This document shows positions 25,883 through 42,238 of a DNA stretch of 42,238 nt, one piece after another; within the stretch, counting starts at the first letter, position 1, and the number at the start of each line of letters is the position of its first letter. The position numbers and the translations under genes are program-made. Under the pieces are notes generated by a model. It saw only the letters and a list, made by a program, of their open reading frames with translations. It was not told the DNA's origin and made no database searches. The DNA is from Burkholderiaceae bacterium. GTDB taxonomy: Bacteria > Pseudomonadota > Gammaproteobacteria > Burkholderiales > Burkholderiaceae_C. Location: the NCBI GenBank assembly GCA_031253795.1, contig JAIRVR010000057.1, positions 1-42,238 of the forward strand, in the 5' to 3' direction.

Positions 25883-27187
25883 TCAAGGATACAGGCCCCG
25901 CATTTCGCGGGCGTGCAGTATGCGCTGGCAGGCCACGATGAAGGTGGCGGTGCGCAGGGTCACGCCGTGCTGCTGGGCCACCTGCCAGATGGCCGCGAAG
26001 GCGTCCTGCATGATGCGCACCAGGCGGGCATTGATCTCGTCCTCGCTCCAGAAGAAGCTGGAGAAATCCTGCACCCATTCGAAGTAGCTCACGGTCACGC
26101 CACCGGCGTTGGCCAGCACGTCGGGCAGGACCAGCACGCCCTTTTCGGTGAGGATGTCGTCGGCTTCGGTGGTGGTCGGGCCGTTGGCGCCTTCGATGAC
26201 CATCTTGGCCTTGATCTTGCCGGCGTTGTCCTTGGTGATCTGGCCTTCCAGGGCCGCGGGGATGAGGATGTCGCAGTCCACGCCCCAGAAATCGGCCGCG
26301 TCCATGGCCTCGGCACCCGCGAAGCCACCCACGCCACCCTTGGCGGCCACATGGGCCAGCAGGGCCGCCACGTCCAGACCGTTGGCGTTGCGGATGGTGC
26401 CGGTGTGGTCCTGCACGGCCACGACCTTGGCGCCCGCGTCGGCGAACAGCTTGCCGGCCGTGCCGCCCACGTTGCCGAAGCCCTGGACGGCGATGCGCGC
26501 GCCCTCGACGGCCAGGCCGGTCAGCTTGGCCGCTTCCACGCCCACGGTGAACACGCCGCGGCCCGTGGCCTCGACACGGCCCAGCGAGCCGCCCAGGTCC
26601 ACAGGCTTGCCCGTGACCACGCCGGTGGCCGTGGCGCCGGTGTTCATGGAGTAGGTGTCCATCATCCAGGACATGATCTGGCCGTTCGTGTTCACGTCGG
26701 GCGCGGGGATGTCCTTGGAGGGGCCGATCAGCAGGCCGATCTCACTGGTGTAGCGGCGTGTCAGGCGCTCCAGTTCGCCGCGCGACAGCTTCTTGGGGTC
26801 CACGCGGATGCCGCCCTTGGCGCCGCCGTAGGGCACGTTCACGGCCGCGTTCTTGACCGACATCCAGGCCGACAGGGCCATGACTTCGGACAGGGTCACG
26901 TCCTGGTGGAAGCGCACGCCGCCCTTGCCGGGACCGCGGCTGAGGTTGTGCTGCACGCGGTAGCCTTCGAAGTGGGCGATGGTGCCGTTGTCCAGCTCGA
27001 TGGGCACGTCCACGATCAGGATGCGCTTGGGGCGCTTGAGGGTTTCGACCCAGCGTGCCAGGTGGCCCAGATAGGGCGTGACGCGGTCGACCTGCTGCAG
27101 GTAATTGCCCCAGGGGCCGAGATGGTCGGCCTGCAGATAGGAGGGGATGGCGTGGTTGGGAAGTCCGGCCGAAGCGGGTTGCTGCAT
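25883..27187 (-). CDS. gdhA: Glutamate dehydrogenase
   Basis: The 434-residue hexameric-type glutamate dehydrogenase interconverts glutamate and 2-oxoglutarate plus ammonia. The dimer/substrate part has '[14 protein letters not shown]' (85-98), '[17 protein letters not shown]' (111-127, catalytic K124) and 'PAPDVNTN' (161-168, Asp 164). The Rossmann domain has '[14 protein letters not shown]' (235-248) and 'VVAVQD' ending strand 2; the acidic end suggests NAD rather than NADP, weakly. '[10 protein letters not shown]' is near the end. ATG 27187 gives family length. A short upstream region with inverted repeats (27255-27303) is shared with the divergent hydratase gene. Repeat copy D and a strong terminator follow. 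Confidence 0.94.
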
Positions 27188-27355
27188 GGTGAATCCATAC
27201 AAAGTTGATCTGAGGGTTTCAGCTTATTCCTGCGGTATTTCCCTGTCCAACGCCTTATGCGCGAGGGTCTTATGCGTTTCATGCATAACCATGGAATCCA
27301 TGGCCCCAGCGCACAATCGGGGGCCATTTCCCTTCCGCATTGCCGAGAAAATTCC
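27188..27355. promoter_or_regulatory. Divergent promoter region with repeated TTATGCG and palindromes
   Basis: Between gdhA and the FAH-fold hydratase gene. TTATGCG occurs at 27255 and 27270, 15 bases apart; TTATGC (27270-27275) also pairs with GCATAA (27283-27288) as a perfect inverted repeat. Next to it is CCATGG-AAT-CCATGG (27289-27303). These are candidate operators for a regulator of one or both genes. Confidence 0.5.
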
Positions 27356-28166: not shown

Positions 28167-29036
28167 TCAGGTGATCCTGTAATCCTTGAGCGCCGGATCG
28201 CCGGCCGGAAAGCGCAGCGGCAGGTTGCGCAGCACCTCGCGCAGCAGGGTGGCGATCATCAGGTTGCGGTGGGTCTTGGAGTCGGCCGGCACGATGGTCC
28301 AGGGCGCCCAGGGCGTGTGCGTGGCGCCCAGCAGCTGGCCATAGGCCTGCTGGTACTGCTTCCACTGCGTGCGCACCTTCATGTCGTTCTCGTCGAACTT
28401 CCAGTGCTTGGCCGGGTCGTCCAGGCGCTCCTGCAGGCGTGTGCGCTGCTCATCCGAGCTGATGTGCAGCAGGAACTTGACGACCACGGTGCCGGTTTCG
28501 CTGAGCATGCGCTCGAAGTCGTTGATCTGGGCGAAGCGCTGGCGCTGCTGCTCGGGCGTGATCCATTCATTGACCACGGGCACCAGCACATCCTCGTAAT
28601 GGCTGCGGTTGAAGACCGTGATCTCGCCCGCGCCCGGCACCTGCTGGTGGATGCGCCACAGGTAGTCGTGGGCGCGCTCGGCGTCCGTGGGCGCCTTCCA
28701 GCCCACGGCATGCACGCCCAGGGCGCTCATGCGACCGAAGACGCCACGGATGGTGCCGTCCTTGCCCGCCGTGTCCGTGCCCTGGAGCACGACCAGCAGC
28801 TTGAAGCGGCGGTCGGCGTACAGCAGGTTCTGCAGGGCGTCGAGCTCTTCGGCCAGGGCCTCGACGGCGGCCTTGTCCTCGGCCTTGCCGTTGCCCTTGG
28901 AAAAGGGCTTGGCCGCGGGGTCGAAGCTGGCCACATCGATGGGCTTGCCGGACTTGCCGGGCTGGGGCTGCCACTGCTGCCACAGGGCTTGCAGGGAGTC
29001 GTCGGAACTGGAAAAAGGCGTGGCTGCGGTATCCAT
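28167..29036 (-). CDS. PPK2-family polyphosphate kinase
   Basis: The 289-residue protein has the PPK2 P-loop 'VLQGTDTAGKDGTIRGVFGRM' region (GTDTAGKD at 86-93), the lid-region 'FNRSHYEDVLVPVVN' (142-156) and 'TVVVKFLLHISSDEQRTRLQ'. It transfers phosphate between polyphosphate and nucleotides (ADP/GDP or AMP), working as a nucleotide-regenerating enzyme in the cytoplasm. Length is typical of single-domain PPK2. CCGGAGACTCC before ATG 29036 sets the start. It stands alone, not in an obvious operon. Class (I, II or III) cannot be settled by eye. Confidence 0.9.
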   Translation of the reverse strand: MDTAATPFSSSDDSLQALWQQWQPQPGKSGKPIDVASFDPAAKPFSKGNGKAEDKAAVEALAEELDALQNLLYADRRFKLLVVLQGTDTAGKDGTIRGVFGRMSALGVHAVGWKAPTDAERAHDYLWRIHQQVPGAGEITVFNRSHYEDVLVPVVNEWITPEQQRQRFAQINDFERMLSETGTVVVKFLLHISSDEQRTRLQERLDDPAKHWKFDENDMKVRTQWKQYQQAYGQLLGATHTPWAPWTIVPADSKTHRNLMIATLLREVLRNLPLRFPAGDPALKDYRIT

Positions 29037-29124
29037 GGAGTCTCCGGAAAGAAAGCGGCATGCGGTACACGAGGGTGCGGGTGCGCCCACGCCGCATTGT
29101 CCGGGACCGCGGCCTGGCCGCCTG

Positions 29125-29532
29125 TCAGGGCATGCCGCGTATGGCCTGCACGCGCAGCCGCAGCGGGTGCGGCATGGCGCCGGCTCCGGCGGGCATGCGG
29201 GGTGCGGCCTCGCCCTGCACCTCGACGGTCTGGCGCTGCCATTGGTCGATCTGCGCCTCGCTGATACCGTCGAGACGCCAGATCTCGCCCGAGGCCGTCT
29301 GCAGCACGGGCTCGGCATGGGGGGCATTGCCGCGCAGCAGCAGCACGCCCTGCAGCGTCACCGCTCCGGTGGCAGGCAGGGCCGCTGCCGGCGGGGCGGG
29401 TGTGGCCGCGCCGGCGGGTACGGCGGGGGCCGAGCAGGCCGACAGGACGGACAGGCCGCAGGCGGCCAGCCAGGGCAGGGCGCGGCGGCGGCCCGAGGGG
29501 CGTTGGAAAGCCGTGGTGTTCATGGTCTTCAT
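29125..29532 (-). CDS. Small lipoprotein coupled to the metalloprotease gene
   Basis: The 135-residue protein starts at ATG 29532, which overlaps the protease stop as ATGA; ATG 29523 is an alternative. The signal peptide contains 'GRRRALPWLAACGLSVL' and a lipobox 'LSAC' (C33). After a Pro/Ala linker (35-55) there is a small beta-rich domain with 'VTLQGVLLLRGNAPHAEPVL' and 'GEIWRLDGISEAQIDQWQRQ', ending 'LRLRVQAIRGMP'. It looks like a small OB-like or beta-barrel domain similar to the DUF-type 'lipoprotein with WRL..' group, but I cannot name a family. The tight coupling suggests it helps or partners the protease at the membrane. Confidence 0.8.
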   Translation of the reverse strand: MKTMNTTAFQRPSGRRRALPWLAACGLSVLSACSAPAVPAGAATPAPPAAALPATGAVTLQGVLLLRGNAPHAEPVLQTASGEIWRLDGISEAQIDQWQRQTVEVQGEAAPRMPAGAGAMPHPLRLRVQAIRGMP

Positions 29533-32289: not shown

Positions 32290-32766
32290 ATGACTTTGCA
32301 AACCACAAAAAAGGGCCTGCAGGGCCCCCAGCGCAGAGTGGTCTTCGTGACCTTGTATGAGCTGATCGCCATCGTGGCCTCCAGCCTGCTGTTCATGGCC
32401 CTGGGGCAGAACGCCGGGCATTCGGGCGGCATGGCCGTGGCCGCGTCCACGCTGGCCATCGTCTGGAACCTGAGCTTCAACTGGCTGTTCGAGCAGTGGG
32501 AGGCGCGCCAGAGCGTCAAGGGCCGCTCGGTTCTGCGCCGCGTGGTCCACGCGCTGTGCTTCGAGGGCGGCCTGGCCCTGGTGCTGATCCCGCTGATGGC
32601 CTGGTGGTTCGGCGTGTCCCTGTGGGAGGCCACCGTGATGGAGGCCGGCCTGCTGGTGTTCTTCCTGGTCTACACCTATGTCTTCAACTGGTGCTTCGAC
32701 CATGTGTTCGGCCTGCCGGCATCGGCCTCGACCGCCGCGGTCCGTGTTCAGGGCGAGCCGGCCTGA
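32290..32766 (+). CDS. PACE-family multidrug/biguanide efflux protein
   Basis: The 158-residue membrane protein has four transmembrane helices arranged as two BTP domains: 'RRVVFVTLYELIAIVASSL' (helix 1, with the Glu in 'YELIAI' that is essential in AceI), 'MAVAASTLAIVWNLSFNWLF', 'RVVHALCFEGGLALVLIPLM' (second domain, again with a Glu), and 'VMEAGLLVFFLVYTYVFNW'. PACE proteins export chlorhexidine, acriflavine and polyamines with protons. Length is typical. It is divergent from a LysR gene and overlaps the convergent response regulator end by 19 bp. Confidence 0.9.
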   Translation: MTLQTTKKGLQGPQRRVVFVTLYELIAIVASSLLFMALGQNAGHSGGMAVAASTLAIVWNLSFNWLFEQWEARQSVKGRSVLRRVVHALCFEGGLALVLIPLMAWWFGVSLWEATVMEAGLLVFFLVYTYVFNWCFDHVFGLPASASTAAVRVQGEPA

Positions 32767-33635
32767 AGCAGCTGGCCCGCCACGGCCGCCGCGGCCGTGC
32801 GCGTCTCCACCCCGAGCTTCTCGAAAATGTGCTCCAGGTGCTTGTTCACCGTGCGCGGGCTCATGCCCAGGATGTCGGCGATGTCCCGGTTGGTCTTGCC
32901 CTTGCTCAGCCAGGACAGCACCTCGGTTTCGCGCGGTGTCAGCGCCACCTCTTCCAGCCGCCGCGAGGCCGCTGCCTGGGGTGCCGCATGGCTGAGCAGC
33001 AGCATGGATTCGCCCAGGCCGCTGGCGCCCATGTGGCGTGCCAGCAGCTGGCGGCCATCGGTCAGCAGCAAGGCCTGCTGACCGTCCTGGCGCGCCTGGG
33101 CCAGCCAGCCACCTGCCGAGGCCTGGGGAAAGGCCTCCTCCAGCCAGCGTGAGGCCTGGGGCGAGCGCCAGGCCACGCGGTCCTGGCCGTCGAGCACCAC
33201 CACGCCCAGTCCCGCCACGTCCACCGCTTCCTGGGCCTGGCGCGTGGCCCGCGCGTTGCGCACATGGGTGGCCAGGCGGGCCAGGACCTCGGGAATGCGC
33301 AGCGGCTTGACCACGTAGTCCACGCCGCCGCTGGCAAATCCCTGGATGATTTGCTCGGTGTCGGAAAGCCCCGTCATGAAGACCACGGGCACATGGGCCC
33401 AGGCCGGCGTGGCCTTGATGCGCCGGCACAGCGCAAAGCCGTCCATGCCGGGCATGACGGCGTCCAGCAGCACGCCGTCGGGCACGGTCAGTCCGAAGCG
33501 CTGCAAGGCCTCCTCGGCGTCGCGGGCGGCCAGCACCACATAGCCTTCGGCGGCCAGGGCCTCGCACAGCATGCGCAGGCTGTCCAGCGCGTCGTCCACC
33601 ACGAGGATCACGTGGGCATCGTTTGCGGTCGTCAT
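32748..33635 (-). CDS. LuxR/FixJ-type response regulator with central PAS-like region
   Basis: The protein has 295 residues. Receiver domain 1-120: acid pair D14/D15, phospho-acceptor D58 in 'GVLLDAVMPGMDG', T89 and K110 in 'DYVVKPLR'. Region 132-225 looks PAS-like ('AGLGVVVLDGQDRVAWRSPQ'). The LuxR-type helix-turn-helix spans 232-283 ('LTPRETEVLSWLSKGKTNRD', 'MSPRTVNKHLEHIF'). AGGAAGACAAGCC before ATG 33635 sets the start; ATG 33662 is an in-frame alternative overlapping the kinase end. It is the cognate partner of the adjacent hybrid kinase. A likely target is the divergent region 37108-37314 with its 16-bp palindrome. CrbR/ErdR, the regulators paired with transporter-kinases, have a comparable FixJ-like form without the long middle part. 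Confidence 0.92.
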   Translation of the reverse strand: MTTANDAHVILVVDDALDSLRMLCEALAAEGYVVLAARDAEEALQRFGLTVPDGVLLDAVMPGMDGFALCRRIKATPAWAHVPVVFMTGLSDTEQIIQGFASGGVDYVVKPLRIPEVLARLATHVRNARATRQAQEAVDVAGLGVVVLDGQDRVAWRSPQASRWLEEAFPQASAGGWLAQARQDGQQALLLTDGRQLLARHMGASGLGESMLLLSHAAPQAAASRRLEEVALTPRETEVLSWLSKGKTNRDIADILGMSPRTVNKHLEHIFEKLGVETRTAAAAVAGQLLQAGSP

Positions 33636-33654
33636 GGCTTGTCTTCCTGGTTGC

Positions 33655-36600
33655 TCATTCATCGGCGCCGGCATCGGCGTCTTCCTCGTCGTGCTGCGGC
33701 AGCAGGCGCACCAGCGCATCGAAGTCGAAGCGGTCGGCGCAGGCCTGCAGGCGGTCTATCAGGCCTTCGTGGCCCGGCGCCTGCTGTCGGGCCTGGCGCA
33801 GCCGCTCGCGCAAGGCCGTGGCCTGGCCCGAGCGTGCCAGCCGCACCAGGTCTTCGCGCAGCCCGGACGGCAGTGCCGCGGCGGCGGCCTGGGGTGCGGC
33901 CGGGGCGGGCGCCGGCAGGGCGGCCGGGCGGTTGTCGCGCACCCATTCGAGCTGCAGCACGCGCTCCAGGGTCTGCAGCAGCTCGGATTCGATCACGGGC
34001 TTGGCCACAAAGCCCTGGCACCGGGCGTCCGCCAGGCGCGGCGGCTCGTTGTCGAACAGATTGGCCGAGACGAAGACGATGGGCAGCTGGGCGGCACTCC
34101 AGCGCGCGCGCAGCAGGGCCGCGGTCTGCCAGCCGTCGAGATCGTCCATGCTGATGTCCAGCAGCACCAGGTCGGGCGGGCTTTGTCCGACGATCTCCAG
34201 GCATTCGCGGCCGCTGGCGGCCTCGCGGATCTCGAATCCCAGCGGCAGCAGCAGGCCGGCCAGGAGCTGGCGCTGCAGCGGCTGGTCGTCGACCACCAGC
34301 AGGCGCCGGCGCGGCGCCAGATAGCCGATGACGCTGTGCAGCGATGCGGCCGCGTCGGGCACCGTCCAGGCGGGGTCGGGCACCATGTCGGGCAGGTACA
34401 GGCGCACGGTGAAGCAGCTGCCCTGGCCCGGCGTGCTGCTGAGCGTGAGCTGGCCGCCCATGAGCTCGGTCAGCAAATGGGTGATGGTCAGGCCCAGGCC
34501 GGTGCCGGTTTCGCTGACGCGCCGCCCGGCGGCGCCGCGCTCGAAGGGCACGAAGATGCGCTCCATGTCCTGGGGCTCGATGCCTATGCCCGTGTCCACC
34601 ACCTCGATGCGCGAGACATGGGGCCGGAAATCCATGCGCAGTCTCACCTCGCCCTGCTGGGTGAAGCGCACGGCATTGGACAGCAGGTTGATGAGGATCT
34701 GCCGCAGCCGCTTGGCGTCGGCGCGCACCCAGCGCGGCATGGTGCCCAGCGTCTCGACCGAGAACTGCAGGCCCTTGGCCTGGGCCTGGGGCCTCATCAT
34801 GGCCTCGATGCTCTCGATGAGCGCAGGCAGGGGCAGGGGAGCGAGGTCCAGCCGCAGCCGGCCGGCCTCGATGCTGGCCAGCTCCAGCGAGTCGTCGATG
34901 AGGGCGCGCAGGTGCTGGCCGCTGTGCTGCATGGTGGACAGGGTTTCGCGCACGGCGCCATCCACGCCGGGGTGCTTGAGCAGGATCTGGGTGTAGCCGA
35001 GGATGCTGTTGAGCGGCGAGCGCAGCTCGTGCGTCATGCCGGCCACGTAGCGCGTCTTGGCCTGGCTGGCCTGTTCGGCCTGGTCCTTGGCGGCCTGCAG
35101 CTCGGCGTCGGTGCGCTTGTGGGCCGCGATTTCCTGCAGCAGCAGCTGGGTCTGGCGCTCGGATTCGTCCTGGGCCATGCGGCGGCTGTCCGTGCTCAGC
35201 ACCACCCACCAGGCGGCCACGGCGCACAGCAGGGCCAGCAGGGCGAAGACCTTGAGAAAGGGCAGGCGCAGGGCCGCGCCCTGGCCGGCATGCAGGCTCT
35301 CCTGCATGTAGACCACGCCCACCATGAAGGCCATCACGGCGCACAGGGACAGCATGACCACCAGGTACTGGCCGATGCGGAAATTGACCTTGGTGGCCCA
35401 GCGTGGGGGCAGCATGGCCGAGGCCAGGGCGCGCAGCTGGTCGCCGGCGCGCGATCCCGTCTTGCAGCGGTCGTGGCAGCGCGATTCCAGCGTGCAGCAC
35501 AGCGAGCAGATGGGTGCGCCATAGGCCGGGCAGCGCGCCATGTCCTCGGACTCGAAGCGGTTCTGGCACACGGTGCACTGCACCATCTCGCCGGGCCGCC
35601 AGTGGGCCTGGGCGGGGCGGGCGATGTAGTAGCGTCCCCGGGTCAGCCAGGCCAGCAGCGGGGCCAGTGCCATGGACAGGCCCAGGGCGATGAAGGGCGA
35701 GAAGGCGGCTGCCACCTCGCCCAGCAGGCCAGCGTAGGCGCAGCAGGCCACGATGGCTGCCATCAGCATGGAGCCCAGGCCCACGGGGTTGAGGTCGTAG
35801 AGGTGGGCGCGGCGAAACTCGATGCCGGGCGGGCTCAGTCCCAGGGGCTTGTTGATGACCAGGTCGGCCACCAGGGCGCCCACCCAGGCGATGGCCACAT
35901 TGCTGTAGACCGTGAGCACCTTCTCGAGCGCGCCGAACACGCCCAGGCTCATCAGCAGGGTGGCGATGACCACGTTGAACACCAGCCAGACCACGCGGCC
36001 CGGGTGGCTGCGCGTGATGCGCGCGAAGAAGTTCGACCAGGCCAGGGAGCCCGCATAGGCATTGGTCAGGTTGATCTTGATCTGCGAGACCACCACGAAG
36101 ACCACGGTCACGGCCACGGCCAGGCCCGGCAGGCCCAGGGCCTGCAGCACCTGGCGAAAGCCCGCCAGGAACATCTGGGTGGGTTCGGCCGCGCGCGTGG
36201 CGTCCACGGCCTCCAGCTGCATGGCGGCGAATGCCAGGAAGGCGCCGCCGGCCATCTTGAGCATGCCCATGACTATCCAGCCCGGCCCGGCCACCAGCAC
36301 GGCGCCCCACCAGCGCAGGCGGTTGGCCCGCGTGCGCGGCGGCAGAAAGCGCAGAAAGTCCACCTGCTCGCCGATCTGCACGGCCAGGGCGAAGATCACG
36401 GCCGCGGCCGCGCCGAACATCAGCGGATCGAAGCCGTTGCTGCCCGAGCGCAGGCCCGACAGCCCCGCGAAATCGCGGTACAGCTGGGGCTGGGCCAGGG
36501 CGATGAAGACAAAGGGCAGCACCAGCAGGAACAGCCACAGCGGCTGGGTCCATGCCTGCAGGCGCGAGATCAGGGTGATGCCGCGCATGGCCAGCGGAAT

Positions 36601-37107
36601 GATGATCAGCGAGGACAGCACGTAACACCACTCCAGCGGCCAGTCCACCACCAGCTGCAGGGCCAGGGCCATGATGGCCGCCTCCAGCGCGAAGAGGATG
36701 AAGGTGAACACCGCGTAGATCAGCGACGTGATGGTCGAGCCCAGGTAGCCGAAGCCCGCTCCGCGCGTGAGCAGGTCCATGTCCAGTCCGTAGCGCGCCG
36801 CGCAGACGGCGATGGGCAGGCCGGTCAGAAAGATCACCAGGCCCACGGCCAGGATGGCCCACATGGCGTTGGCAAAGCCGTAGTTCAGCGCAATCGCCCC
36901 GCCGATGGCCTCCAGCGCCAGGAAGGACAGGGAGCCGAAGGCCGTGTTGGCCACGCGCAGCTCGCTCCAGCGGCGAAAGCCGCGCGGCGTGTAGCGCAGG
37001 GCGTAGTCCTCCATGGATTCGTCGGCCACCCAGGCGTTGTATTCGCGCCGGAACCGGAAGATGGTCTGCGGCGCGGGCTGGGCATGGGGTGGGCTGGAGG
37101 AGGGCAT
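33655..37107 (-). CDS. NCS1 permease-histidine kinase-receiver fusion protein (transporter-type sensor)
   Basis: Domains of this 1150-residue protein: 18-490, an NCS1-type (nucleobase/allantoin/hydantoin) transporter with about 12 helices ('YNAWVADESMEDYALRYTP', 'MDLLTRGAGFGYLGSTIT', 'QIGEQVDFLRFLPPRTR', 'NLTNAYAGSLAWSNFF'); 511-548, an eight-cysteine cluster (C511, C514, C526, C534, C537, C538, C544, C548); two more helices (about 580-600, 615-637); a coiled coil (645-685); HisKA with H693 in 'THELRSPLN'; HATPase with N807/N811, 'DTGIGI', 'GTGLGL'; and a receiver (935-1050) with D940/D941, D984 and K1036. The tail 1080-1138 is helical with no Hpt histidine. It probably senses transported or bound nucleobase-like or urea-related compounds. 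Start ATG 37107; it is divergent from the urt operon. Confidence 0.85.
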   Translation of the reverse strand: MPSSSPPHAQPAPQTIFRFRREYNAWVADESMEDYALRYTPRGFRRWSELRVANTAFGSLSFLALEAIGGAIALNYGFANAMWAILAVGLVIFLTGLPIAVCAARYGLDMDLLTRGAGFGYLGSTITSLIYAVFTFILFALEAAIMALALQLVVDWPLEWCYVLSSLIIIPLAMRGITLISRLQAWTQPLWLFLLVLPFVFIALAQPQLYRDFAGLSGLRSGSNGFDPLMFGAAAAVIFALAVQIGEQVDFLRFLPPRTRANRLRWWGAVLVAGPGWIVMGMLKMAGGAFLAFAAMQLEAVDATRAAEPTQMFLAGFRQVLQALGLPGLAVAVTVVFVVVSQIKINLTNAYAGSLAWSNFFARITRSHPGRVVWLVFNVVIATLLMSLGVFGALEKVLTVYSNVAIAWVGALVADLVINKPLGLSPPGIEFRRAHLYDLNPVGLGSMLMAAIVACCAYAGLLGEVAAAFSPFIALGLSMALAPLLAWLTRGRYYIARPAQAHWRPGEMVQCTVCQNRFESEDMARCPAYGAPICSLCCTLESRCHDRCKTGSRAGDQLRALASAMLPPRWATKVNFRIGQYLVVMLSLCAVMAFMVGVVYMQESLHAGQGAALRLPFLKVFALLALLCAVAAWWVVLSTDSRRMAQDESERQTQLLLQEIAAHKRTDAELQAAKDQAEQASQAKTRYVAGMTHELRSPLNSILGYTQILLKHPGVDGAVRETLSTMQHSGQHLRALIDDSLELASIEAGRLRLDLAPLPLPALIESIEAMMRPQAQAKGLQFSVETLGTMPRWVRADAKRLRQILINLLSNAVRFTQQGEVRLRMDFRPHVSRIEVVDTGIGIEPQDMERIFVPFERGAAGRRVSETGTGLGLTITHLLTELMGGQLTLSSTPGQGSCFTVRLYLPDMVPDPAWTVPDAAASLHSVIGYLAPRRRLLVVDDQPLQRQLLAGLLLPLGFEIREAASGRECLEIVGQSPPDLVLLDISMDDLDGWQTAALLRARWSAAQLPIVFVSANLFDNEPPRLADARCQGFVAKPVIESELLQTLERVLQLEWVRDNRPAALPAPAPAAPQAAAAALPSGLREDLVRLARSGQATALRERLRQARQQAPGHEGLIDRLQACADRFDFDALVRLLPQHDEEDADAGADE

Positions 37108-37314
37108 GACCGGATATAGCAAGAAACGTGCTGGGCCAATGCCGGCGCGGATCGCGCGGGACCGGTGGCGGGCAAGGATGGCGCGCAGGCCGGGCTACGT
37201 CAATTGACGTATGGGCGGTTTCAAGGGTTGTTCCTAATCTTGGAACCAGGGCGGAAACAAGCCGTAACCGTTGTCCCCCAGACCATCCAACCCGATCCTG
37301 ACAGGAGAGTCACC
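37108..37314. promoter_or_regulatory. Divergent promoter region of the permease-kinase and the urt operon
   Basis: This 207-bp region contains the perfect 16-bp palindrome TACGTCAATTGACGTA (37196-37211) and an imperfect dyad TTGTTCC/GGAACCA (37228-37234, 37242-37248). A possible -10 TAATCT lies at 37235-37240. If transcription starts near 37247, the palindrome centre lies about 43 bases upstream, which is where many activators touch RNA polymerase. Positions are my inference, not measured. Confidence 0.6.
37196..37211. promoter_or_regulatory. Perfect 16-bp palindrome, candidate operator
   Basis: TACGTCAATTGACGTA is identical to its own reverse complement. It lies between the divergent permease-kinase and urtA genes. 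Its half-site TACGTCAA resembles LuxR/FixJ-type recognition half-sites, so the response regulator at 32748-33635 is the first candidate to bind it. Confidence 0.65.
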
Positions 37315-38580
37315 ATGAGCCACCCCTCCGAACCCCGCGCGCCCGGTTCCGTTCCCGCCGAGCTGGGCCGCCGCCGTGTCCTGCAGGCGCTAGGCGCCGC
37401 TTCCATGGCCGGCCTGCCGGCCTGGTCCTTCGCCCAGTCCACGGCCCAGGTCAACACCACCAAGCTGGCCGTGACCGACACCGAGGTCGTGGTGGGTCAG
37501 CTGCACTCGGCCACGGGCACCATGGCGATTTCCGAGACGGGTTCCATCCAGGCCGAACAGCTGGCCATCGACCAGATCAACGCCGCGGGCGGCGTGCTGG
37601 GCCGCAAGATCCGCGTGATCAAGGAAGACGGCGCCTCCGACTGGCCCACCTTCGCCGAGAAGTCCAAGAAGCTGCTGATCAACGACCGCTGCGCCGCCGT
37701 TTTCGGCTGCTGGACCAGTGCCTCGCGCAAGGCCGTGCTGCCGGTCTTCGAAAAGGAAAACGGCCTGCTGTACTACCCCACCTTCTACGAAGGCCTGGAG
37801 CAGTCCAAGAACGTGATCTACACAGGCCAGGAAGCCACGCAGCAGATCCTCTACAGCCTGGACTGGGCCAAGGCCGAGAAAAAGGCCAAGACCTTCTTCC
37901 TGATCGGCTCGGACTACATCTGGCCGCGCACGTCGATGAAGATCGCGCGCAAGCACATCGAGAACTTCCAGAAGGGCAAGGTCGTCGGCGAGGAGTACTA
38001 CCCGCTGGGCAGCACCAACTTCGGCTCCCTGGTAAACAAGATCAAGCTGCAAAAGCCCGACTGCATCTTCGTGGCCGTGGTGGGCGGCTCCAACGTGGCC
38101 TTCTACAAGGCCCTCAAGGCGGCCGGCATCACGGGTGACACGCAATTGCTGGTCACGCTGTCGGTCACCGAGGACGAAATGACGGGTGTGGGCGGAGAGA
38201 ACTTCACGGGCTTTTACTCCTCGATGAAGTATTTCCAGACGCTGGACAACGAGAACAACAAGAAATTCGTGGCCGCCTTCAAGGCCAAGTACGGTCCCAA
38301 CGCCGTCATCGGCGATGTGACCCAGGCCGGCTACCTGGGCCCCTGGCTGTGGAAGGCCGCCGTGGAAAAGGCCAAGAGCTTCGATGTGGACAAGGTGGTG
38401 GCCGCATCGCCGGGCCTGGAGCTCAAGACCGCACCCGAAGGTTATGTGAAGGTGGACGCCAACCACCACCTCTGGAGCAAGTCGCGCATTGCCGTCGGCC
38501 AGCCCGACGGCACCTTCAAGGTCGTCTCGGAGTCGCCTGAACTGATCAAGCCCGATCCGTTTCCCAAGGGTTACCAGTAA
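37315..38580 (+). CDS. urtA: Urea-type ABC transporter substrate-binding protein
   Basis: The 421-residue periplasmic protein has an N-terminus 'GRRRVLQALGAASMAGLPAW' with twin arginines, so Tat export is likely. The mature part has features of the UrtA/FmdD family: 'VGQLHSATGTMAISETGSI', 'DGASDWPTFAEKSKKLL', 'VFGCWTSASRKAVLPVFEK' and 'NNKKFVAAFKAKYG'. It captures urea or short amides (formamide-type receptors are close relatives, so this cannot be excluded). ACAGGAGAGTCACC before ATG 37315 fixes the start. It is first of the urt operon. Its stop at 38578-38580 is followed directly by repeat copy E, before urtB, which may set the surplus of receptor over membrane subunits. Confidence 0.9.
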   Translation: MSHPSEPRAPGSVPAELGRRRVLQALGAASMAGLPAWSFAQSTAQVNTTKLAVTDTEVVVGQLHSATGTMAISETGSIQAEQLAIDQINAAGGVLGRKIRVIKEDGASDWPTFAEKSKKLLINDRCAAVFGCWTSASRKAVLPVFEKENGLLYYPTFYEGLEQSKNVIYTGQEATQQILYSLDWAKAEKKAKTFFLIGSDYIWPRTSMKIARKHIENFQKGKVVGEEYYPLGSTNFGSLVNKIKLQKPDCIFVAVVGGSNVAFYKALKAAGITGDTQLLVTLSVTEDEMTGVGGENFTGFYSSMKYFQTLDNENNKKFVAAFKAKYGPNAVIGDVTQAGYLGPWLWKAAVEKAKSFDVDKVVAASPGLELKTAPEGYVKVDANHHLWSKSRIAVGQPDGTFKVVSESPELIKPDPFPKGYQ

Positions 38581-38582
38581 GG

Positions 38583-38655
38583 CACCCCCTGAGCGGCTGA
38601 CGCCGCTTCCCCCTCTCTTCTCGCTTCGCGAGGGAGGGGGACGACATCCTCGGTG
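38583..38655 (+). repeat. Structured intergenic repeat, copy E
   Basis: On the plus strand it starts two bases after the urtA stop: CACCCCCTGAG, stem GCGGC-TGAC-GCCGC, CCCCCTC hairpin (facing arm GAGGGAGGGGG with an apex TTCTCGCTTCGCG). The distal modules of the other copies are missing or degenerate. It lies between urtA and urtB within one operon. Confidence 0.8.
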
Positions 38656-38745
38656 TCTCCCGCGTCGGGCTCTGCCGGTTTCAGGCAGGGCCGGTTCGTT
38701 GCATCGATGGTTTTCCCCGATTGGCTTGCGCGCAGGAGCTGCACC

Positions 38746-39660
38746 ATGAGTTTTTCCGACATGATGAATATCGGCCTGATGCAGGGCTTCGCGGGGCTGA
38801 GCCTGTTCGCCGTGCTGCTGCTCATGGGCCTGGGCCTGGCCATCATTTTTGGCCAGATGGGCGTGATCAACATGGCGCATGGCGAGTTCATGACCATCGG
38901 CGCCTACACCATCTACCTGGGCTCGACGCTCACGGCGCAGCACGCGCCTGACTTCATGCCCTATTACTTTCCGCTGGCCATCCTGGCGGCCTTCATGTTC
39001 GCCTTTGCCGCGGGCTGGCTGGTGGAGTGGGGGCTGATACGCCATCTGTACAAGCGCCCGCTGGACACCCTGCTGGCCACCTGGGGCGTGAGCCTGGCGC
39101 TGCAGCAGTGCTTTCGCACCTTCATCGGCCCCAAGGAAGTCAGCCCCACGCTGCCGGACTGGCTGATGGGTTCCTGGGCGCCGGCCGAGGGCCTGGACAT
39201 TCCCATCAACGGCCTGTTCGTGCTGGCGCTGACCCTCATCGTCACGGCCGGCGTGCTGATCGCCCTGCACAAGAGCCGCTGGGGCCTGCGCGTGCGTGCC
39301 ACGGTGAGCAACCGCGTCATGGCCAACGCCATCGGCATCGACACCAAGAAGACGGACCGCCTGACCTTTGCCATCGGCTGCGGCATTGCCGGCGTGGCCG
39401 GCGCGGCCTTCACCACCATCGGCTCGACGGGGCCGACCTCGGGCTCCCTGTACATCGTGGATGCCTTCCTGGTCGTCACCTTCGGTGGCGCGGCCAGCCT
39501 GCTGGGCACCGTGGTCTCGGCCTTCGGCATCGCCCAGACGCAGTCCATCACCGAGTTCTTCATGGCCGGCTCCATGGCCAAGGTGATCACGCTGTCGCTC
39601 ATCGTCTTCATCCTGATGCTGCGCCCCCAGGGCCTGTTCGCCTCCAAGGTCCGGCGCTGA
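38746..39660 (+). CDS. urtB: Urea-type ABC transporter permease (LivH-like)
   Basis: The 304-residue inner-membrane protein has many hydrophobic helices typical of branched-chain amino acid/urea permeases: 'FAVLLLMGLGLAIIFGQMGV', 'INMAHGEFMTIGAYTIYLG' (the conserved 'NMAHGEF' loop), 'ATVSNRVMANAIGIDTKK' (coupling loop) and 'YIVDAFLVVTFGGAASLLGT'. It lacks the long N-terminal extension of some UrtB proteins. GCAGGAGCTGCACC before ATG 38746 fixes the start. It forms the heterodimeric pore with UrtC. Confidence 0.92.
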   Translation: MSFSDMMNIGLMQGFAGLSLFAVLLLMGLGLAIIFGQMGVINMAHGEFMTIGAYTIYLGSTLTAQHAPDFMPYYFPLAILAAFMFAFAAGWLVEWGLIRHLYKRPLDTLLATWGVSLALQQCFRTFIGPKEVSPTLPDWLMGSWAPAEGLDIPINGLFVLALTLIVTAGVLIALHKSRWGLRVRATVSNRVMANAIGIDTKKTDRLTFAIGCGIAGVAGAAFTTIGSTGPTSGSLYIVDAFLVVTFGGAASLLGTVVSAFGIAQTQSITEFFMAGSMAKVITLSLIVFILMLRPQGLFASKVRR

Positions 39661-39703: not shown

Positions 39704-40921
39704 ATGCAAGCCCTCAAAGCCTGGATACAGCGATACCAGCTCGCCAGCCTGGTGCTGCTCACCGTCCTGCTGGCGGTGGTGCTGCCCCTGGCGCTGGACA
39801 TCTTCCGCCTCAACCTGGTCGGCAAGTACCTGACCTATGCCTTCGTGGCCATCGGCCTGGTCATGGTCTGGGGCTACGGCGGCGTGCTCAGCCTGGGCCA
39901 GGGCGTGTTCTTCGGCCTGGGCGGCTATGCCATGGCCATGTTCCTCAAGCTGGAAGCCTCCGATCCCATCAGCACCAAGATCCAGTCCACGCCCGGCATT
40001 CCCGACTTCATGGACTGGAACCAGCTGACCGAACTGCCCTCTTTCTGGATCCCGTTCAAGAGCCTGCCGTTCTCGCTGGCCGCCGTCATCGCCGTGCCCA
40101 CGCTGCTGGCCTGGGTGGTGAGCTACGCCATGTTCAAGCGCCGCGTGGGCGGGGTGTACTTCGCCATCATCACGCAGGCCGTGGCGCTGATCCTCACCGT
40201 GCTCATCATCGGCCAGCAGGGCTATACGGGCGGCGTCAACGGCATGACCGACCTCAAGACCCTGTGGGGCTGGGACACGCGTACCGACAGTGCCAAGTAC
40301 ATCCTCTACTACGTGTGCGTGGCCCTGCTGATCGGCGCCATCGTGCTGTGCCGCTGGATACAGACGGGCAAGGTGGGCACCCTGCTGCTGGCCATGCGCG
40401 ACAAGGAGGACCGCGTGCGCTTTTCGGGCTATGACGTGGCCAACTTCAAGGTCTTCGTGTTCTGCCTGGCGGCCGCGCTGTCGGGCATAGGCGGCGCCCT
40501 GTTCACGCTGCAGGTGGGCTTCATGTCGCCCAGCTTCGTGGGCATCGTGCCCTCCATCGAAATGGTCATCTACGCCGCCGTGGGCGGACGCATGAGCCTG
40601 GTGGGCGCCGTCTACGGCACCTTGCTGGTCAATGCCGGCAAGACCTATTTCTCGGAGAGCTTTCCCGACCTGTGGCTGTTCCTCATGGCCGGCCTGTTCA
40701 TCGGCGTGACCATGGCCTTCCCCATGGGGCTGGCCGGCCTGTGGGAAAGCCGCATCGTGCCGTGGTGGAAAAGCCGCCGCAAGGGCGCCCAGCCCGCCGT
40801 GACGGCCGGGGCCCCCGCTGCCGCAGCATCGGCTGCCGCAGCTCCGGCTGCCGCAGCATCCTCCGCCGCCACCAAGCCCTCGTCCACCCTGTCCGAAGGC
40901 ATGGGCCGCCAGGGCGCCTGA
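39704..40921 (+). CDS. urtC: Urea-type ABC transporter permease (LivM-like) with Ala-rich tail
   Basis: The 405-residue protein is the second permease. Typical segments are 'YGGVLSLGQGVFFGLGGYAM' near 64-83, 'GYTGGVNGMTDLKTLWGW', 'LLAMRDKEDRVRFSGYDVAN' and 'VGGRMSLVGAVYGTLLVNAG'. After the last helix the tail from about 365 is Ala/Ser/Pro-rich and encoded by three 15-bp tandem units (40817-40861), an extension not needed for the core fold. CACCGGAGTTTTCCC before ATG 39704 gives the start. It pairs with UrtB and the two ATPases. Confidence 0.92.
   Translation: MQALKAWIQRYQLASLVLLTVLLAVVLPLALDIFRLNLVGKYLTYAFVAIGLVMVWGYGGVLSLGQGVFFGLGGYAMAMFLKLEASDPISTKIQSTPGIPDFMDWNQLTELPSFWIPFKSLPFSLAAVIAVPTLLAWVVSYAMFKRRVGGVYFAIITQAVALILTVLIIGQQGYTGGVNGMTDLKTLWGWDTRTDSAKYILYYVCVALLIGAIVLCRWIQTGKVGTLLLAMRDKEDRVRFSGYDVANFKVFVFCLAAALSGIGGALFTLQVGFMSPSFVGIVPSIEMVIYAAVGGRMSLVGAVYGTLLVNAGKTYFSESFPDLWLFLMAGLFIGVTMAFPMGLAGLWESRIVPWWKSRRKGAQPAVTAGAPAAAASAAAAPAAAASSAATKPSSTLSEGMGRQGA
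40817..40861 (+). repeat. Three 15-bp tandem repeats in the urtC tail
   Basis: Three units of form GCTGCCGCAGC(A/T)(T/C)C(G/C) stand head to tail and encode Ala-Ala-Ala-(Ala/Ser)-(Ser/Pro) pieces of the UrtC C-terminal tail. Units differ at two or three positions. Confidence 0.85.
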
Positions 40922-40941: not shown

Positions 40942-41685
40942 ATGAGCAATACCGACTTCACGCTGGCCGTGGAAGACCTCACGGTCTCGTTCGACGGATT
41001 CAAGGCCATCGACGCGCTGAACCTGTACATCGACCGCGACGAGCTGCGCGTCATCATCGGCCCCAACGGCGCGGGCAAGACCACGCTGCTGGACCTGATC
41101 TGCGGCAAGACGCGCGCCACGGGCGGCAGCATCAAGTTCAAGAACGAGGAGCTGACGCGCATGGCCGAGTACCAGCGCGTGCGCCTGGGCATAGGCCGCA
41201 AGTTCCAGACCCCGTCCATCTACGAGAACCTCTCGGTGTTCCAGAACCTCGAGGTCTCCTACCCCGAGGGACGCTCGGTCTTCGGCGCCCTGGCCTTCAA
41301 GTGCACGGATGCGGTGCGCGATCGCGTGCAGGCCGTGGCCACCGACATCGGCCTGGGCGACCGGCTGGACACCGAGGCCGGCCTGCTCAGCCATGGCCAG
41401 AAGCAGTGGCTGGAGATCGGCATGCTGCTCATGCAGGAGCCGGAGCTGCTGATGCTCGACGAGCCCATCGCCGGCATGAGCGCGCGCGAGCGCGAACTGA
41501 CGGCCGAGCTGCTGCAGCGCATCTGCAAGAACCGCTCGGTGATCGTGATCGAGCACGACATGGAATTCGTCGCACGCATCGCCCACAAGGTCACCGTCAT
41601 GCACCAGGGAAAAATCCTCGCCGAGGGGCCCATGGACAAGGTGCAGGCCGATCCCAAGGTCATCGACGTCTACCTCGGCCATTGA
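40942..41685 (+). CDS. urtD: Urea-type ABC transporter ATP-binding protein (LivG-like)
   Basis: The 247-residue ATPase has Walker A 'GPNGAGKTT' (40-48), the UrtD form of the signature motif 'LSHGQKQWLEIGM' (H in place of the second G of LSGGQ), Walker B 'LLMLDEPIAGM' and switch His in 'VIVIEHDMEFV'. The LSHGQ form is the norm for UrtD, not a defect. It starts 20 bases after urtC with TGGAGCACATC as ribosome binding site. It powers import together with UrtE. Confidence 0.94.
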   Translation: MSNTDFTLAVEDLTVSFDGFKAIDALNLYIDRDELRVIIGPNGAGKTTLLDLICGKTRATGGSIKFKNEELTRMAEYQRVRLGIGRKFQTPSIYENLSVFQNLEVSYPEGRSVFGALAFKCTDAVRDRVQAVATDIGLGDRLDTEAGLLSHGQKQWLEIGMLLMQEPELLMLDEPIAGMSARERELTAELLQRICKNRSVIVIEHDMEFVARIAHKVTVMHQGKILAEGPMDKVQADPKVIDVYLGH

Positions 41686-41705: not shown

Positions 41706-42238
41706 ATGCTGCAAGTCAAGGATCTGTACGTGGCCTATGGCCAGAGCGAGGCGCTGCACGGCATCTCCTTCGAAGGCCGCGAAAACGAAACCGTGGCCAT
41801 CATGGGGCGCAACGGAATGGGCAAGACCACGCTGTTCAAGAGCCTGATGGGCGTGATGCCCGCCAAGAGCGGCCAGATCACCGTGGCCGGCCAGGACGTG
41901 ACCCGCGACGAGAGCTTCCGGCGCGTGGCCAAGGGCATCGCCTACGTGCCCCAGGGCCGCATGATCTTTCCCACGCTGACCGTGGAGGAAAACATCCAGA
42001 CCGGCCTGGAGAACGCGAAGACGCGCCAGGTGCCCGACGATATCTACGCCCTGTTTCCCGTGCTCTGGGACATGCGCCGGCGCAAGGGCGGCAACCTCTC
42101 GGGCGGGCAGCAGCAGCAGCTGGCCATTGCGCGCGCCCTGGTCACCGACCCCAAGGTGCTGCTGCTGGACGAGCCCACCGAGGGCATACAGCCTTCCATC
42201 ATCAAGGACATCGCCAAGGCGCTCAACGAGATCCGCAA
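41706..42238 (+). CDS. urtE: Urea-type ABC transporter ATP-binding protein (LivF-like), 3' end missing
   Basis: The frame starts at ATG 41706 ('MLQVKDLYVAYGQSEALHGI') and runs to the window end, 177 codons, so about 50-60 residues are missing. It has Walker A 'GRNGMGKTT' (34-42), 'GIAYVPQGRMIFPTLTVEEN', signature 'NLSGGQQQQLAIARAL' and Walker B 'VLLLDEPTEGIQPS'. It is the last transporter gene; urease or amidase genes often follow such operons, but the continuation is not visible. Confidence 0.93.
   Translation, partial: MLQVKDLYVAYGQSEALHGISFEGRENETVAIMGRNGMGKTTLFKSLMGVMPAKSGQITVAGQDVTRDESFRRVAKGIAYVPQGRMIFPTLTVEENIQTGLENAKTRQVPDDIYALFPVLWDMRRRKGGNLSGGQQQQLAIARALVTDPKVLLLDEPTEGIQPSIIKDIAKALNEIR

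Follow-up and report, generated by a model that had tools for sequence, protein, structure and literature searches.

The window, a contig of 42,238 bases from a Burkholderiaceae bacterium, carries near its right end a minus-strand gene (33655..37107) for a hybrid sensor histidine kinase whose membrane domain, judged by profile comparison, is derived from NCS1 transporters. We propose that this kinase is probably a sensor of short-chain amides, or in some clades of urea, and that it controls its own uptake and hydrolysis genes. Short-chain amides are the suggested ligand class because the family is linked to formamidase, to aliphatic amidase and to an amide-type Urt system; urea would be the ligand in four clades. 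A wider reading, which we put forward tentatively, is that the family may represent a third class of transporter-derived sensor kinases. Here, an NCS1 fold with a lysine-filled sodium site and an altered stacking pair would form a receptor for formamide-like amides, an eight-cysteine module (perhaps metal-binding) would act as coupler, and the genes would form a portable, self-regulated cassette that, on a single tree, changed four times to a urea context.

Architecture and distribution of the kinase

The minus-strand frame is open from 33655 to 37122, and the ATG at 37107 starts a protein of 1150 amino acids. The parts of this protein and the adjacent regulator gene are as follows.

33655..37107, minus strand: hybrid sensor kinase with NCS1-derived membrane domain, 1150 aa from ATG 37107 (open frame and Pfam)
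35608..37065, minus strand: NCS1-like membrane domain of about 12 helices, residues 20-505 (hhalign, CodB residue mapping)
35443..35595, minus strand: eight-cysteine module, residues 510-560 (8 Cys in 96/96 aligned rows)
35188..35382, minus strand: two extra transmembrane helices, about residues 581-645 (family-mean hydropathy)
34861..35061, minus strand: HisKA with phospho-acceptor H698 (PF00512, 2.9e-16)
34393..34719, minus strand: HATPase_c (PF02518, 9.6e-28)
33967..34299, minus strand: receiver domain (Response_reg) with D989 (PF00072, 5.7e-21)
32748..33662, minus strand: response regulator, REC and GerE (LuxR type; Pfam), starting at ATG 33662 or ATG 33635

The regulator gene lies 3' of the kinase, in the same orientation; with ATG 33662 as its start, it would overlap the end of the kinase frame by 8 nt. 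An earlier note, made from this DNA alone, had described a 1150-residue frame with a cysteine cluster, two extra helices, a histidine kinase and a receiver; open frame, Pfam, hydropathy and alignment bear this description out. Hereby, family-mean hydropathy, with neighbouring peaks merged manually, yields 12 hydrophobic segments up to residue 487 and two further ones at residues 588-602 and 622-638. Pfam and the alignment together reveal HisKA, HATPase_c, a receiver and all catalytic residues, the make-up of a hybrid histidine kinase. The residues previously given as H693, N807/N811 and D984 are here H698, N812, N816 and D989, our numbering being 5 higher because the frame is taken from 5 codons further upstream. 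The His and both Asn are conserved in 96/96 aligned relatives, and the receiver Asp is present in 94/96 rows, with a gap in L090 and L091. These two are shorter kinases (894 and 899 aa), both near the formamidase gene FmdA and lacking UrtA, B and C in the stretch that was fetched; a Pfam scan, made for L091, found no receiver. Between the membrane domain and HisKA no Pfam match was found, where the presence of a STAC model in Pfam was not confirmed.

The 96-row alignment comprises the kinase of 33655..37107, 46 loci of the genome collection and 49 rows from other genomes; frames below 850 aa or with at most 430 aligned residues were excluded (among them L032, L039, L042, L049 and L050). From the collection 52 loci were fetched, including one with the kinase only (L053) and two with broken frames (L049 and L050), in which the homologue is split over several frames through sequencing error or decay. 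At least 57 strong matches (at least 508.9 bits) occur in at least 52 of 398 proteobacterial genomes, every frame measuring at least 894 aa; a higher tally of 54 is reached when G236, with a fragment of 94 aa, and G194, with a weak stand-alone protein, are counted too. Since the identical fusion recurs across Proteobacteria, it is not a product of chance. Few candidates were scored in each genome search (3 for the kinase, up to 41 for the cysteine module, 4 for UrtA and FmdA), so that all counts are lower bounds. Loci and genomes moreover share kinship, so that the counts are not independent, and this reduces their weight in favour of our interpretation. Matches were also obtained in 530 plasmid records, 342 of them from Klebsiella. 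Five plasmid examples were examined, and four hand-chosen plasmid loci (L166, L167, L169 and L170) are part of the 106 loci whose neighbourhoods are described below. Among the listed titles and abstracts of the open-licence literature, no description of this NCS1-like kinase fusion was found.

Descent of the membrane domain

According to the earlier note, the N-terminal half is a complete NCS1-type nucleobase/allantoin permease, to be checked by comparison with PF02133. Neither PF02133 nor any other significant Pfam match was found in the membrane half of the kinase of 33655..37107 or of 5 relatives, the relatives giving only two insignificant DUF matches (E 0.47 and 0.9). The single PF02133 match of the source genome is located away from the kinase. 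Given this lack of any significant match, the description as a complete permease was overstated; the Na2 and base-stacking positions are changed as well.

In hhalign comparisons, a profile of 19 relatives aligned with five ordinary NCS1 proteins at a probability of 92.9 over 361 columns, whereas for twelve SSS proteins the probability was 4.6 and the alignment spanned 81 columns, the control of NCS1 versus SSS giving 27.6. Two stand-alone proteins bridge the family and NCS1. L085 aligns to the family profile with a probability of 97.2 over 424 columns, matches TIGR00800 well below its cut-off and has the cytosine permease 7qoa as its best PDB match (E 0.0077). L084 is 27% identical over the domain and passes the PF02133 cut-off (35.9 vs 23.5 bits). 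Because of the profile comparison and these bridging proteins, we conclude at the sequence level that the membrane domain is NCS1-derived, yet lies outside NCS1 as delimited by the curated PF02133 model, and that it is not a standard nucleobase permease. The distance of this link speaks against it: the best NCBIfam match of the domain, a cytosine permease across residues 55-456, has an E value of 0.0034, and profile searches with the membrane domain and with L084 matched no transporter in the PDB.

An SSS/SLC5 sensor kinase misread as NCS1 would fit the described sensor kinases with such a layout, which are of the SSS type in the available part of PMC7918813. In view of the much lower hhalign probability for SSS than for NCS1, which also falls below the control, we reject this identity as highly improbable, so that the earlier note's preference for an NCS1 over an SSS/SLC5 fold stands. 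The kinase of 33655..37107 likewise has no Pfam match to an SSS-type or an ammonium transporter.

Some further observations concern the stand-alone proteins. L084 (5783-7438) is encoded in a genome, G193, that also has the kinase, and the next frame is a candidate carbon-nitrogen hydrolase, judged by eye. An Arthrobacter plasmid (L168, 8929-10608) encodes a 560-aa stand-alone relative, 45% identical to the membrane domain, with no kinase in frame and no Pfam or NCBIfam match; it is one actinobacterial example. Homology of its tail to the cysteine module was considered and dropped (best domain 2.0 bits).

Pocket and sodium-site residues

The contact and Na2 sites of CodB were taken from the accessible part of PMC9379551 and located in the family through an alignment that included E. 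coli CodB and, as controls, five other NCS1 proteins; an alignment of proteins this distant is risky, which applies to every CodB site named here. D213, R216, N280 and Y285 of CodB are kept in 96/96 family rows. The controls keep D213 in 4, R216 in 5, N280 in 3 and Y285 in 1 case; as only 1/5 retains Y285, this residue links the family to CodB-like proteins and not to NCS1 at large. At the sodium site, Thr278 is replaced by Lys (Lys349) in 96/96 and Thr279 by Ile in 95/96 rows, and three stand-alone relatives carry Lys or Arg at the position of Thr278. The base-stacking Phe204 is Leu in 96/96 rows, while Trp108 has become Phe in 88/96 and Leu in 8/96, the latter including the kinase of 33655..37107; among the controls, position 108 is Trp in 5/5 and position 204 aromatic in 3/5. 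The polar residues T140, E147, Q249, E252 and Q253 are invariant in the family, and mean column identity of the membrane domain amounts to 85% in 39 close rows and 63% in the 19-row alignment. Three of these points are unfavourable to our reading, namely the low retention of N280 and Y285 among the controls, the still aromatic character of the Phe that replaces Trp108, and the occurrence of Thr at both sodium positions in only 1/5 controls, because of which the Thr278/Thr279 pair is a weak criterion of membership.

NCS1 ancestry, the TM8 Asn kept in 96/96 rows and a position 108 that is mostly still aromatic would all suit a sensor of nucleobases, hydantoin or allantoin. Such a ligand is nevertheless hardly probable, given that the second stacking residue is Leu throughout and that, in neighbourhoods not scanned for purine-catabolism genes, urt, amidase or urease genes are found at every long-flank locus (see below). 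Somewhat better placed, though still unlikely, is a transceptor that carries amide or urea, coupled to protons, while it signals, comparable to CbrA and histidine. CbrA transports histidine with a Lys in its Na2 site (PMC13022988, as far as available), and the basic residue at this position in the family and in its three stand-alone relatives is what one would expect on this view; on the other hand, an ABC importer (urt) is already encoded next to the kinase, and Ks-Amt5 demonstrates that a fused transporter domain is able to lose transport (PMC5764959, in the part consulted).

Gene context and ligand class

Divergent from the kinase lies the urt operon.

37315..38580, plus strand: urtA, substrate-binding protein of the amide-type group (TIGR03407, 510.0 bits vs cut-off 492.75)
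38653..39660, plus strand: urtB (TIGR03409)
39704..40921, plus strand: urtC (TIGR03408)
40960..41685, plus strand: urtD, matched part (TIGR03411)
41709..42238, plus strand: urtE, truncated at the contig end (TIGR03410, 276.9 bits vs cut-off 285.8, partial)

Thus urtA to urtD score above the NCBIfam cut-offs and the partial urtE just below; other UrtA copies in the survey reach up to 604 bits with TIGR03407. Pfam and NCBIfam hence agree with the earlier placement of the kinase beside its response regulator and opposite urtABCDE, with urtE partial. The regulator is adjacent downstream in 94/101 loci with at least 900 nt of flank, an approximate figure in which L049 is represented by a piece and L050 by a wrong frame, and urtA is divergent within 3.5 kb in 77/99 loci with at least 2 kb upstream.

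To assign contexts, UrtA proteins were divided at 55% identity to the UrtA of 37315..38580, urea-type proteins being 37-47% and amide-type proteins at least 65% identical to it; formamidase, aliphatic amidase and urease were identified from NCBIfam matches of representatives. With 14 loci that have less than 8 kb upstream set aside (the locus of 33655..37107 among them), 92 of the 106 loci remain, and amide or urea genes are present in the fetched stretch of all 92. The gene is thus linked to nitrogen genes in relatives, and neither of the two outcomes that the earlier note named as refuting (a best score with SSS/SLC5 or another well-studied sensor transporter, or a lack of this linkage) has occurred. 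An amide-type UrtA plus amidase occurs at 70 loci, the same with urease at 1 and amidase only at 2, while 8 have a urea-type UrtA, 4 a urea-type UrtA plus urease and 7 urease only. The contig studied here ends before any amidase, and the source genome carries FmdA at the start of another contig; at the four Delftia loci FmdA lies beyond urt, the protein of L002 being confirmed by NCBIfam. Of the earlier proposal that purine-degradation products or urea are sensed, the urea part is upheld for four clades. For purine products no evidence was found in neighbourhoods that were not scanned for purine-catabolism genes, and the genes tested favour short-chain amides.

The frequent divergence of urtA would also be in keeping with a flux sensor, in which the signal comes from the Urt ABC importer or from loaded UrtA and not from the kinase's own pocket. 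Yet the pocket positions are highly conserved, and the stretches fetched for 6/92 long-flank loci (L088-L091, L115 and L119) contain none of UrtA, B and C, these genes possibly residing elsewhere in the genome; we regard flux sensing as distinctly unlikely. L087, L088 and L089 are second kinase copies beside urease, in genomes (G246, G379 and G225, respectively) with another copy in an amide context.

Amide sensing by the kinase is in line with the co-occurrence of kinase and formamidase. FmdA exceeds the cut-off in at least 40 of the 398 genomes, 39 of which also have the kinase (Fisher value 1.4e-41, disregarding kinship), and at the genus level 27/28 FmdA genera possess the kinase, 9/36 kinase genera being without FmdA. 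Two results run counter to this association, the presence of the kinase in 13/358 genomes without FmdA over the cut-off and its absence from one genome with FmdA (G114). Of the 13, the 12 with a fetched neighbourhood are all urea-transport or urease loci, and for the 13th (G224) the contig is short. Fitch parsimony, applied to a single FastTree tree of the membrane domain, requires four changes from amide to urea context, whereas 200 shuffles needed 16.8 on average and never fewer than 13. At residue 313, each of the four urea clades has Asp in most of its members, while 91% of amide-type rows have Glu; as this column was chosen post hoc from all columns, the split is no more than suggestive.

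The Klebsiella plasmid pTHO-017-1 (L166, 2888-13243) bears kinase, regulator, formamidase (AmiF), ABC genes and UrtA. This UrtA is 70% identical to that of 37315..38580 and thus of the amide type; since the cluster in addition contains a formamidase, its substrate may be formamide-like amides rather than urea alone. Elsewhere in the window, the minus-strand frames 28167-29327 and 25883-27202 encode PPK2 polyphosphate kinase and Glu/Leu/Phe/Val dehydrogenase domains, which are ordinary genes.

A palindrome between kinase and urtA

A candidate operator lies about midway in the 207 bp that separate the divergent kinase and urtA genes.

37196..37211, no strand: 16-bp perfect palindrome, proposed operator TACGY-N6-RCGTA

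Its layout recalls the 7-2-7 sites of NarL-type regulators. At least 12/16 palindrome positions are matched in 59/96 upstream regions, where about 0.75 would be expected from sequences with shuffled two-base blocks, and TACGY-N6-RCGTA occurs within 400 nt of the kinase in 62/96 loci. Within the 1.98 Mb of the 96 loci there are 90 sites, 82 of which fall at the beginning of a tested gene (kinase, UrtA, FmdA or amidase), in the range from 450 nt before its start to 60 nt into it; 72/96 loci have at least one such site. Of the 8 remaining sites, 4 lie about 66-79 nt inside extrapolated UrtA starts (L087, L103, L130 and L132), 2 are close to contig ends, 0.9 and 2.2 kb upstream of the kinase (L010 and L012), and the last 2 are elsewhere (L023 and L129).

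At the scale of whole genomes, the close form (at most one mismatch) occurs at one place in 4/6 genomes and at none in 2/6; in G246 it is found about 10 kb from the kinase. The loose form has 44 places in ten genomes, 15 of them at kinase, UrtA or FmdA promoters; these 15 include one each in G225 and G246 that precedes, by 175-190 nt, the matched part of another UrtA with a higher score. A backward control pattern was commoner than the loose form (8 to 98 places per genome). Several facts detract from an operator role: 34/96 loci have no palindrome within 400 nt of the kinase, 24/96 have none at any tested start, the other 29 of the 44 loose places are elsewhere or were not placed, and the reference palindrome was picked after inspection of the region around 37196..37211. 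Sigma-54 promoters in the intergenic region were also considered and dropped, with a strict pattern in 0/81 and a looser one in 5/81 loci.

Cysteine module and proposed signalling path

The eight cysteines, which lie between the NCS1-like domain and the pair of extra helices, are invariant in the 96 aligned rows. In 150 genomes, a profile of the module matched 15 places inside the kinase frames of this family, spread over 14 genomes; four further matches, located in short frames of four other genomes, were weak (E about 0.005-0.007). Similarity to Prok-RING_1 (PF14446) is weak, being seen in 6/29 members, below the cut-off and with a best E value of 0.0052; the module of the kinase of 33655..37107 reaches 15.7 bits, the cut-off being 29.1. 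Possibly, as a guess from these similarities, the module is a RING/treble-clef-like metal site. The invariant cysteines and their weak RING-like similarity could further point to a redox or metal sensor in which the membrane domain serves as an anchor, but we deem this improbable, the membrane domain being strongly conserved and the tested neighbour genes metabolic.

For the preferred amide sensor, the following path is conceivable. An amide ligand would reach the membrane domain, which would shift its shape as NCS1 transporters do; the cysteine module, together with the two extra helices, would relay this change to the dimerising helices. H698 would then be phosphorylated and the phosphate passed to the adjacent LuxR-type regulator. 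Finally, the regulator would bind the palindrome between the divergent operons and switch on urtABCDE, formamidase or amidase, and its own kinase-regulator pair. Here we infer the ligand, the direction of control, the binding of the palindrome by the regulator and the phosphotransfer. As ligand class, target genes and DNA site are all predicted, each step of this chain can be tested.

Comparison with known systems

If the proposed function is correct, the kinase is a likely regulator of formamide and amide use in many Proteobacteria. It is likely to regulate as well the Klebsiella plasmid cluster, of a kind that has been treated only as a urea transporter (PMC5506382, PMC13060141). The 'urea transport system' of Klebsiella ST307/CG307 plasmids consists of UrtABC and AmiF, and L166 resembles it in having AmiF, ABC genes and a UrtA divergent from kinase and regulator; this likeness is one of gene content as published. 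The main texts of both cluster papers contain the terms histidine kinase and sensor zero times, as do those of two reviews the term NCS1. GrtK is an ammonia sensor with another membrane domain (PMC12918730, as far as accessible) and is not relevant here.

Among transporters, CodB and Mhp1 are the nearest reference: the family shares D213, R216, N280 and Y285 of CodB, but differs in the altered Na2 Thr pair and stacking pair and in the fusion to a kinase. That an NCS1 protein is able to recognise a non-ring N-C-N compound is documented for the metformin transporter MetT in the available part of PMC13390362; in contrast to the present kinase, MetT, as described there, is a plain transporter.

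Transporter-kinase fusions have been reported, in the portions of the literature at hand, with an SSS fold or, once, with an ammonium transporter, so that the NCS1-derived family would be an independent example. In Ks-Amt5 a transporter of a nitrogen compound has likewise been recruited as sensor of a fused kinase; it belongs to another transporter family, however, and its kinase part consists solely of DHp and CA, fused straight to the Amt domain (PMC5764959, same part). CbrA and CrbS/MxtR (SLC5/STAC) similarly join a LeuT-fold transporter domain to a kinase, CrbS being a hybrid kinase, and the Lys in the Na2 site of CbrA (PMC13022988) has its counterpart in Lys349. By these partial descriptions, they differ from the present family in having an SSS in place of an NCS1-like domain, and STAC and PAS where the cysteine module and the two helices are found here; the amide and urea gene context is likewise a feature of the present family.

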